A stretch of 64,000 nucleotides of DNA, taken from assembly GCA_902537815.1 (NCBI GenBank), contig CACBCS010000004.1:1-64000 (forward strand), written 5' to 3'. Both the position numbers and the translations under genes were made by a program. The DNA comes from an uncultured Pseudohongiella sp. (GTDB taxonomy: Bacteria > Pseudomonadota > Gammaproteobacteria > Pseudomonadales > Pseudohongiellaceae). Positions 60,404 to 64,000 of this stretch are shown here, piece by piece. Positions within the stretch are counted from its first letter, which is position 1. The number at the start of each line of letters is the position of its first letter. The notes beneath the pieces are model-generated. The model was given only the letters and a program-made list of their open reading frames with translations, was not told where the DNA came from and ran no database searches.

Positions 60404-61624
60404 CTAGCCGATAGACAGGAAAAATCCCGCGATGGCCGCGCTCATCAGATTCGCCATGAAACCGGCGAGAACGGCGCGAAGCCCCAACTCGGCGATGTCC
60501 TTACGGCGATTGGGCGCCATCATTCCTATTCCTCCGAGCACAATGCCGATGGAAGAAAAGTTGGCAAATCCGCAAAGGGCGAAGGTGACGATGGCTTGAG
60601 AGCGATCGCTCATAAGCGTCATCTGATCAGTAAAGGAAACAAACGCCACAAACTCATTAAACACCAGCTTTTGGCCAATCAGACTTCCCGCCAATCTGGT
60701 TTCCTCCCACGGGATGCCAACGATGAGGGCCAGCGGTTGGAACGCATAACCGAGTAGAAGCTGCAGAGACACATCAGCGAAGCCAATCATTGCGCCCAGC
60801 GAGCCCAACAGCGTATTGACCAGCGCAATTAAACCGACGAAAGCCAGCACCATAGCGCCCACATTCAAAGCCAGTGACATGCCGCTGCTGGCGCCTGATG
60901 CCGCGGCGTCTATGACATTGACATGACTTTCGAATTCCAGCGTGAACTCTTCCTCTTCGCTCACTATTTTTTCAGCTTCGGGAAGCAACAGTTTTGCCAT
61001 CAGAAATCCACCCGGCGCCGCCATGAAACTGGCAGCCAACAGATACTGTATTTCGACGCCGAGCAGCACGTAGCCGGCCAGCACCGAGCCCGCCACTGTG
61101 GACATCCCACCGACCATGATGGCAAACAGCTCGGAGCGGGTCATGTTGGCGATATAGGGCCGCACAATCAGCGGTGCCTCAGTCTGTCCGACAAAAATAT
61201 TTGCGGTGGCCGACATTGATTCCGCCTTACTCGTTCTGAGTAAACGCTGGAGTGCACCGCCTATCATGCGGATAAGCCAGCCCATGATGCCCAGGTGATA
61301 GAGCACTGAGACCAGAGAAGAGAAGAACACAATCACCGGCAGCACATGAAAAGCAAAGATGAACCCCATCTCGAATGCGCCGATAGTGCCGAAAACAAAA
61401 TCGATGCCGTCCTGCGCGTTATTCAGTACGCTGGACACCGCATTGGATACCGCCTCCAGAACCGCGACGCCGAGCGGAAAATAGAGCGCAACGCCCCCCA
61501 GCGCGAATTGCAGCAAAAGCGCGAATCCTACGGTGCGCCAGTTGATCTGATGACGCCCGGACGACAACAAAATACCGAGACCGAACAAAATACCGATGCC
61601 TAACAGACTGATCAGAGTTTCCAT
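60404..61624 (-). CDS. NupC family concentrative nucleoside transporter
   Basis: A 406-residue inner-membrane nucleoside symporter with about ten hydrophobic segments. The CNT signature is visible in [19 protein letters not shown] near residues 145-165 (QTEAP loop, nucleoside binding) and [16 protein letters not shown] near 365-380. Its start codon overlaps the udk stop (TGATG), so import and phosphorylation of uridine or cytidine are expressed together. This neighbour pairing makes the substrate call fairly safe. Confidence 0.94.
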
Positions 61625-62283
61625 CAGAAGTGCTGCCCTAATTGTTCGTGAGGTGTGGCTTGCTTTTCCAGTTTCATCCGGTCGATCAGTTTACGCACCA
61701 GACCAGTAACCTCTTCTTCACCGGATACGATCAGATCAGCAAAGGCACGCGTCGGCTCAATAAACCTCCGGTACATTGGCTTGACTGTCTCCTCAAATTG
61801 TCTGATCACAGACTCGCGGCTGCGTCCTCGTGTCTGAACATCCCGCCGCATCCGTCTCGACAGACAAACGTCAAGTGGCGTATCGACGAACACACTCAGA
61901 TCATAGTGATCGCGCAGGCGGCTGTCATGAAGCAGTAATATACCTTCAAGAATCAGGAGGGGCGAGGGCTCTGTTATCTGACAGTGAGGCGATCTGGTAT
62001 GCACTGCATAGTCATAACAGGGAATCTCTGCAGTCAGCCCCGATCTGAGTTGTTTCAGATGCCCGAGCAAAAGGTCGTGCTCAAAAGCGTCTGGGTGATC
62101 GTAATTCACCAGCTCCCGCTCCGCCATAGGCAGATGGTCCTGATTCCGATAGTAGAAATCCTCGGAAATCAACCCGGTCGTATCCGACGGAATCTGCTCT
62201 GCCAGAGCGTGCCTGAGAGCGTTGGCCAGGTAGGTCTTGCCTGACCCGGATGCGCCGGTTATCGCGATAAGCTTGGTGATCAA
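61624..62283 (-). CDS. udk: Uridine kinase Udk
   Basis: A 219-residue cytoplasmic kinase that phosphorylates uridine and cytidine in pyrimidine salvage. The Walker [12 protein letters not shown] is at residues 9-19, with [15 protein letters not shown] and [13 protein letters not shown], both hallmark Udk blocks, and [11 protein letters not shown]. The start is TTG at 62283, with AGGG at suitable distance; no better in-frame start exists. It is the middle gene of a minus-strand group: selenoprotein, udk, nupC, separated by 55 bases and a one-base overlap. Confidence 0.93.
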
Positions 62284-62338: not shown

Positions 62339-62560
62339 TTATTCACCCGCCAGAACGCCCGCTATCTCTCCCGGCTCGGGAAAACGGTTGCTGTCCGCTT
62401 TGGAGAATAGAGTGCGGCCTTCGGCGGTCACCTCAAATACTCCGCCACTGCCGGCGACGAGATTCACCTGATGGCCACCCAGCTCCAAAACTTCATTAGA
62501 CACACGGTCTGCTGCCGGCTTGTAATTTCAGGCCGTACAGTAAGTAATCACAATCTGCAT
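62339..62560 (-). CDS. SelW-like (Rdx family) selenoprotein with in-frame UGA
   Basis: Read on the minus strand from ATG 62560, the frame gives MQIVITYCTA, then TGA (62528-62530), then NYKPAADRVSNEVLELGG and on to TAA at 62339. With TGA as selenocysteine the 73-residue protein has a CxxU motif (YCTAUNYKP) in the exact place of the Rdx/SelW redox motif, a conserved GGVFEV strand and a normal C-terminus. A short stem-loop AGAC-CGUGU-GUCU lies 18-30 bases after the UGA, in the range of bacterial SECIS apical loops. No CxxC copy or other stop occurs. Its role is probably a thiol/selenol oxidoreductase. It lies 55 bases upstream of udk. Sec machinery genes are not in the window, so direct proof is missing. 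Confidence 0.85.
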
Positions 62561-62652: not shown

Positions 62653-62686
62653 AATCATAACAGCTTAACAGGCCTAGGTGGACAAG

Positions 62687-64000
62687 ATGACAGCTTCACC
62701 CGCAACCCTCAAGAAAACCCCTGCCCGCTTCCTGCTGCAGCTCATTGCTGTTTCCCTATGCTCATGTGTCGGAGCACAGGAGTCTGAGGAGACCTGGTAC
62801 GCGAGCGGACAGGCTGCCGTGGCACGGAATCTGGAGCTGCGCGCTGCCAGTAGCGGCACTGCCCGAAATGTGATCCTGGTTGTTGGTGACGGCATGGGAG
62901 TTTCTACCGTCACTGCAGCGCGCATCATGGAAGGTCAGCTTCTCGGCGGAACCGGCGAGGAGCATATGCTGAGTTTCGAGCAGTTTCCTAGCCTTGCTCT
63001 GTCCAAAACCTACAACACGAATCAGCAAATCGCAGATTCAGCGGGCACGATGACGGCGATGGCTACTGGGGTAAAAACCAAGGCAGGGGTCATCAGCGTG
63101 AATCAACAGGCGATTCGGGGGGAATGCCGAAGTCAATCAGGAAATCATTTGCTGACCTTTCTGGAAAGGGCAGAGAACCGCGGCCTTGCCACGGGTGTCG
63201 TCACGACGGCACGAATCACCCACGCCACTCCGGCAGCCAATTATGCGCACAGCATGGAACGCAATTACGAAGACGATGGGGACAGCAGCCAGGTCAGTAA
63301 TGCCGAAGAGTGTCCCGATATTGCGCGCCAGCTTATCGAGTTTGCTGAAAATAATACCGGCAGCGATGGCCTGGAAGTCGCTATGGGAGGCGGGCGCACG
63401 AGCTTTATTCCGCAAATCGCTGCCGACCCCGAGTATGGCAGCAGCGGTGCCAGAATAGATGGCCGCGATTTGACAGCTGAGTGGGTAGACTCACACGCAA
63501 ACAGCGCTTACGTGTGGAATCAGGAGCAGTTTGACGCCATTGACCCGGAAGCGACCGACCACCTTCTCGGGCTGTTCGAACCATCACATATGCAGTACGA
63601 CCACGATCGCCCGGTTGATGAGGCCGGCGAACCCAGCTTAAGTCAAATGACGGCTAAAGCGATAGACATTCTGAGCAGAAACGACAAAGGCTTCTTCCTT
63701 CAGGTTGAAGCGGGACGGATTGATCACGCCCACCATGCCACCAACCCGTTTCGCGCTCTCCTCGATACCATTGAACTGTCCCGCGCAGTGCGCACTGCGA
63801 TGGACAAGGTAGATCTGACTGAAACCCTGATTATCGTCACCGCAGACCACAGCCACGTATTCACCATTGCGGGATATGCAACCCGCGGGAACCCGATCCT
63901 CGGCAAGTCAATTGGCAATGACAGCCGCGGTGAACCGCGCGCCGAACCCTGGCTCGCTGCGGATGACTTACCTTATACAACGCTGGGTTACGCCAACGGT
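62687..64000 (+). CDS. Alkaline phosphatase, 3' end cut by the window edge
   Basis: The first 438 codons of a secreted alkaline phosphatase, open to the right edge. An N-terminal signal with LCSCVG may give a lipoprotein. The metal-binding VVGDGMG (Asp68), the nucleophile in DSAGTMTAMATGVKT (Ser118), EAGRIDHAHH and ADHSHVFTIAGY are all visible, so the catalytic site is intact. It releases phosphate from monoesters in the periplasm. It is divergent from the selenoprotein gene across 126 bases that contain a palindrome. No ordinary Pho box is seen. Confidence 0.92.
   Translation, partial: MTASPATLKKTPARFLLQLIAVSLCSCVGAQESEETWYASGQAAVARNLELRAASSGTARNVILVVGDGMGVSTVTAARIMEGQLLGGTGEEHMLSFEQFPSLALSKTYNTNQQIADSAGTMTAMATGVKTKAGVISVNQQAIRGECRSQSGNHLLTFLERAENRGLATGVVTTARITHATPAANYAHSMERNYEDDGDSSQVSNAEECPDIARQLIEFAENNTGSDGLEVAMGGGRTSFIPQIAADPEYGSSGARIDGRDLTAEWVDSHANSAYVWNQEQFDAIDPEATDHLLGLFEPSHMQYDHDRPVDEAGEPSLSQMTAKAIDILSRNDKGFFLQVEAGRIDHAHHATNPFRALLDTIELSRAVRTAMDKVDLTETLIIVTADHSHVFTIAGYATRGNPILGKSIGNDSRGEPRAEPWLAADDLPYTTLGYANG

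Follow-up and report, generated by a model that had tools for sequence, protein, structure and literature searches.

Comparative evidence for a SelW-like selenoprotein gene with an in-frame UGA and a short SECIS-like hairpin in an uncultured Pseudohongiella

In bacteria, selenocysteine (Sec) is decoded when hairpin-bound SelB delivers Sec-tRNA to a UGA codon. A 2005 study of the Sargasso Sea reported 48 SelW-like selenoprotein sequences (PMC1088965), and the SelW-like family (CxxU) stands at the top of the family table in the Global Ocean Sampling survey with 427 sequences (PMC2398784); in its treatment of this family, PMC1794560 describes Cys homologues of SelW-like proteins as very few in Sec-containing organisms. 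The gene that we describe here, located near the end of the window (the whole 64,000-nucleotide stretch of DNA that was analysed), adds to this SelW-like family, which is already common in marine bacteria. A preliminary description of the locus had called it an overlooked SelW-like selenoprotein; its SelW-like identity stands, and ‘overlooked’ is too strong for a field with the family models NF041051 and TIGR02174 and with papers since 2005. Our search of the literature since 2009 for SelW selenoproteins in gammaproteobacteria turned up a single review, which was unrelated. We consider it nearly certain that the gene encodes a functional bacterial SelW-like selenoprotein in which Sec is inserted at codon 11 by means of a downstream hairpin; the features of the locus are collected in Table 1.

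Table 1. Coordinates of the selW-like gene, its recoding features and its neighbors in the window
Feature	Coordinates	Strand	Description and evidence
selW-like selenoprotein gene	62339..62560	(-)	73 residues, UGA read as selenocysteine; PF10262, conservation in the genus, purifying selection
Sec UGA (codon 11), second redox position of CxxU	62528..62530	(-)	Cys in 11 UGA-free rows of a 21-row alignment
Putative bacterial SECIS hairpin	62498..62510	(-)	4-bp stem AGAC/GUCU, 5-nt loop CGUGU; covariation and RNAalifold
Phosphoribulokinase/uridine kinase family, next downstream	61624..62283	(-)	219 aa; PF00485, E 2e-42
Na+ dependent nucleoside transporter, downstream	60404..61624	(-)	406 aa; PF07662, PF01773, PF07670
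Alkaline phosphatase, upstream, divergent	62678..64000	(+)	continues beyond the window end; PF00245, E 5e-115

The frame contains a single TGA, within YCTA-UGA-NYKP, before it closes with a stop codon; we read it on the minus strand exactly as first claimed, with the TGA at the second redox position of CxxU. With the standard code, all that the same frame yields is an ORF of 54 aa that starts at an internal GTG (62503). This ORF appears in the open reading frame listing, as it should if the UGA were a true stop and translation began at the GTG; however, its product would be devoid of strand 1 and of both redox residues, which belong to the best-conserved region of the family, and we regard an internal start as extremely improbable.

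The family assignment was made on both the raw genome and the read-through protein. Against the raw genome, PF10262 (Rdx) gives 52.4 bits, above its cut-off, with ‘1 TGA’ inside the match, which is the only one in the genome; against the read-through protein, it gives 60.8 bits (cut-off 22.6; E 1.5e-16), and TIGR02174 is passed with 49 bits (cut-off 34.2). The best NCBIfam match is NF041051 (SelTWH_Campy; 83.8 bits over residues 3–69), narrowly short of the equivalog threshold of 88 bits. An AlphaFold2 model, calculated with C in place of U (mean pLDDT 87.8), has the order strand, helix, three strands and C-terminal helix. Its top fold match in the PDB is 2fa8, ‘selenoprotein W-related’ (TMq 0.89); mouse SelW (2npb) follows with a TMq of 0.75, thioredoxins rank after the SelW-related proteins, and a sequence search returns the same bacterial SelW-related set as the fold search. 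The Pfam, TIGR02174 and 2fa8/2npb matches together bear out the proposed Rdx/SelW identity. The feature that characterizes SelW/Rdx proteins, a CxxC or CxxU located after strand 1 of a thioredoxin-like fold, is found in both the alignment and the model; Y7, C8 and position 11 are invariant in the 21-row alignment. In three copies from the genus (L127, L128 and L129), F replaces the Y that precedes the Cys.

The 71% complete genome (85 contigs, 2.14 Mb) was searched for selA, selB, selD and tRNA-Sec, and all four are present. The tRNA-Sec scores 64.5 bits, above the Rfam cut-off, and ARAGORN also calls a tRNA-SeC with the anticodon UCA; SelA (E 6.7e-153), SelB (E 2.4e-117; beta-barrel and winged-helix domains above cut-off) and SelD (E 9e-86) are encoded in the same genome, and tRNA-Sec, SelB and SelA are all located inside 20 kb on contig 1. 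These genes bear on the reading that UGA has been reassigned throughout the genome (e.g., to Trp or Cys) and that selenium is uninvolved. Reassignment would open the frame likewise; however, it is opposed by the presence of a tRNA-Sec with a UCA anticodon together with SelA, SelB and SelD, by the SelA, SelB and SelD frames, which have zero inner stops under the standard code, and by the stop codons of the gene itself in 47 copies from the genus (TGA in 22, TAA in 16 and TAG in 9). Because UGA terminates 22 of these 47 copies, it still works as a stop in the genus, and we give reassignment practically no credence.

SelD is encoded by a 752-residue frame (L050:1396-3651 (-); contig C1, ~43900) in which a pyridine nucleotide-disulphide oxidoreductase domain precedes SelD; the frame is an Ndh-SelD fusion, and such fusions are mentioned in PMC2398784. 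As for other selenoproteins, a search for formate dehydrogenase alpha (TIGR01553) found nothing in this genome, of which 71% is covered. A read-through scan for single-TGA frames outside long ORFs, covering the window and the loci L010, L011 and L050, listed 28 frames, of which the selW-like frame was the only one checked against protein families.

Of the 84 genomes in the genus, 53 match; 51 of them have the gene, and every match in these 51 contains one TGA. A Cys form was not found among the 84 genomes at E <= 0.001. The preliminary description had named relatives with TGC or TGT at this codon and random decay elsewhere in the frame as evidence against Sec, and the 51 genomes display TGA instead. 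They hold 53 gene copies, the DNA of which was read (47 by script, plus L014 and five more). The family frame after the UGA is kept in 52 of the 53 copies, with a length of 60 to 75 codons in 47 copies; the exception, L135 (G325), loses the family frame in the last part of the gene. Two more genomes of the genus hold remnants, one frameshifted (L136, in G369) and one a short fragment (L137, in G349); together with L135, they suggest that selW is being lost within the genus. Two members of the genus have two UGA-selW copies each, G372 (L101) and G329 (L130/L131); the copies in G372 are ~5.5 kb apart and belong to a second sequence type (CVQUNYKPKAVSLAAK).

Outside the genus, the form of the gene was determined in samples of the order and the phylum. 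In the order, 64 of 293 genomes have a homologue, which contains the TGA in 10 of them and is free of inner stops in 54; the 10 comprise two genomes from this genus and eight from one other family (f40), and the 20 stop-free loci that were read (of the 54) have TGC or TGT at the Sec position. All 10 genomes that have the UGA form (10 of 10) encode a full-length SelA, vs 9 of the 54 whose homologue is stop-free (Fisher p 6e-7); these counts omit three weak SelA matches, none of which is within the 64 genomes. SelA does not track the gene within the genus, where it is found in 46 of the 51 gene-bearing genomes and in 30 of the 33 others; the five genomes that have the gene and are without SelA are 79 to 92% complete. 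In G328, SelA is broken into several frames, and G370 has an intact SelA plus a second, split copy. In the phylum, 82 of 398 genomes match, with the TGA in two only, this genome and G498; the latter, from another class of the same phylum, holds a distant UGA-bearing SelW homologue (L138; CGAUGYKPQ). A pattern scan of contigs, built on the UGA alignment, gave 4 loci only, probably because the patterns demand a Cys codon. The homologues L052–L055, from Cyanobacteriota and one unclassified bacterium, have C-x-x-C-x-Y according to the search pattern. The distribution is the one by which bacterial selenoproteins are recognized, that is, the UGA is conserved among orthologues and Cys takes its place elsewhere (the 11 UGA-free rows).

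The sequence 3′ of the UGA was compared between copies of equal length. All pairs in the usable range (84 of 84) have a dN/dS <1 downstream of this codon (median 0.208, maximum 0.847), which indicates that this stretch is under purifying selection. For the window gene, the ratios are 0.67 with L100, 0.40 with L112, 0.24 with L113, 0.08 with L069, 0.15 with L107 and 0.38 with L122; L100 is the nearest relative, and its value of 0.67 rests on 6 differences.

These comparisons decide against a pseudogene, that is, a Cys-form Rdx gene with a nonsense mutation at its redox codon. A lone in-frame TGA is what such a mutation would leave, and decayed copies do exist in the genus (the frameshifted L136, L135 with its altered end, and the fragment L137); however, one TGA is found in all 51 gene-bearing genomes of the genus as well as in eight f40 genomes, the frame after it is intact in all but one of the genus copies, and purifying selection after the TGA, covariation in the hairpin (vide infra) and the Sec machinery in the genome all argue against decay. 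Conservation rules out a pseudogene as the general explanation, and for the window gene itself we consider this explanation very unlikely.

A SECIS-like stem-loop had been proposed to follow the UGA, and it is present as stated: the hairpin AGAC-CGUGU-GUCU has a G at loop position 2 and lies 21 nt past the UGA. The rules for bSECIS elements in PMC13188914 call for a loop of 3–9 nt, an upper stem of 4–16 bp, a G as the first or second loop nucleotide, a distance of 16–37 nt after the UGA and an MFE of <= -7.5 kcal/mol. The window hairpin agrees with these rules in loop, stem, G and spacing, and at -6.9 kcal/mol it misses the published energy limit. When the core hairpin is enforced, 34 of 44 distinct sequences from the genus reach -7.5 kcal/mol, and 10 of 44, the window included, do not. 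Folded alone, the 51 nt from the UGA of the window (-6.9 kcal/mol; z +1.04) are no better than shuffles, and an Rfam scan of the region returned two chance matches far under gathering score and zero SECIS families. A script that selects the most stable hairpin picked other hairpins in some sequences, again including the window, so we adopted tests based on alignment.

The 48 nt from the UGA onward align gap-free in 56 genes (48 from the genus and 8 from f40). Covariation was tested on 53 distinct sequences using a seven-pair version of the hairpin, 500 shuffles, slid controls and five measures; the shuffle control ignores relatedness, whereas the slid control preserves it. Cells with two-sided change number 41 vs 15.7 in the shuffles, and the covariation score is 0.344 vs 0.102, with neither value reached by any of the 500 shuffles (0/500 each); the slid controls give at most 12 two-sided cells and a score of at most 0.060. 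The excess of pairs with two-sided change is mild (3 vs 2.0; reached by 11/500), and the number of further pair types (10 vs 9.3; reached by 187/500) is not beyond the shuffles. With the first 10 sequences alone, covariation is weaker (9/500 shuffles reach the score). The pair 62510–62498 (columns 21 and 33) joins two third codon positions, has six standard pair types and is formed in 51 of 53 sequences; the innermost of the seven tested pairs fails in 38 of 53. RNAalifold predicts exactly the four pairs of the preliminary description (columns 21–24 with 30–33), so its stem-loop is backed across relatives by two methods. The window has these four core pairs only; the two outer pairs that most relatives possess are absent. 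Support for the predicted hairpin comes, then, from the comparison of relatives, the fold of the window's own sequence being unremarkable.

The product is most likely a selenol oxidoreductase of thioredoxin fold, synthesized through UGA recoding that depends on SelB. SelB with GTP and Sec-tRNA(UCA) would bind the hairpin 21 nt 3′ of the UGA, and Sec would be placed at codon 11 to give a 73-residue protein of thioredoxin fold with a Cys-x-x-Sec pair right after strand 1. A CxxU pair in a thioredoxin-like fold suggests a selenol oxidoreductase; the protein may act as a small thiol/selenol oxidoreductase that switches between its reduced state and a selenylsulfide, probably during redox repair of proteins or small thiols.

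The neighboring genes were considered as a partner set for the selW-like gene. In 53 loci from the genus (flanks of ~1.5 to 3 kb, several cut by contig ends), the fetched flanks contain matches to alkaline phosphatase in 27, to uridine kinase in 15 and to the nucleoside transporter in 15; the partner set is thus matched in the flanks of only part of the genus, and we set it aside. A broader proposal can be framed for the SelW subgroup of the genus: some SECIS elements, that of the window included, may have been cut to a four-pair stem that is kept by covariation at third codon positions, tolerated by the SelB of the genus and missed by energy-based searches, and SelW may be linked to a locus for the salvage of nucleosides or phosphate. 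We consider this proposal as a whole rather doubtful.

The evolutionary evidence confirms a gene for a small selenoprotein, which translation by the standard code would cut short at the UGA. The locus is also a clean example of an RNA signal within a coding region, in which two third codon positions covary and so preserve a hairpin, and it suggests that a weak SECIS narrowly outside the published limit on energy can nonetheless be genuine. It does not establish a new class of system.

The relation to described systems follows from these results. The presence of only the UGA form in the genus agrees with the statement in PMC1794560 that Cys homologues are very few in Sec-containing organisms, yet nine genomes of the order that encode SelA carry the stop-free form instead. 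The Cys-form Rdx proteins (2fa8, 2oka, 2obk, 2ojl and 2p0g) share the fold, and in the aligned rows their CxxC occupies the position of CxxU; unlike the window protein, they have Cys for Sec, W for Y two residues on and ~3 extra residues mid-way, and, unlike the window genome, 45 of the 54 order genomes with the stop-free form are without SelA. With the bacterial SelW-like selenoproteins (PF10262 and TIGR02174; as represented in PMC1088965 and PMC2398784), the window gene shares the family, the CxxU motif, the Sec position and a SECIS after the UGA; we saw no fundamental difference from them, and the gene represents a U-x-Y-x-P subgroup with a short SECIS stem.
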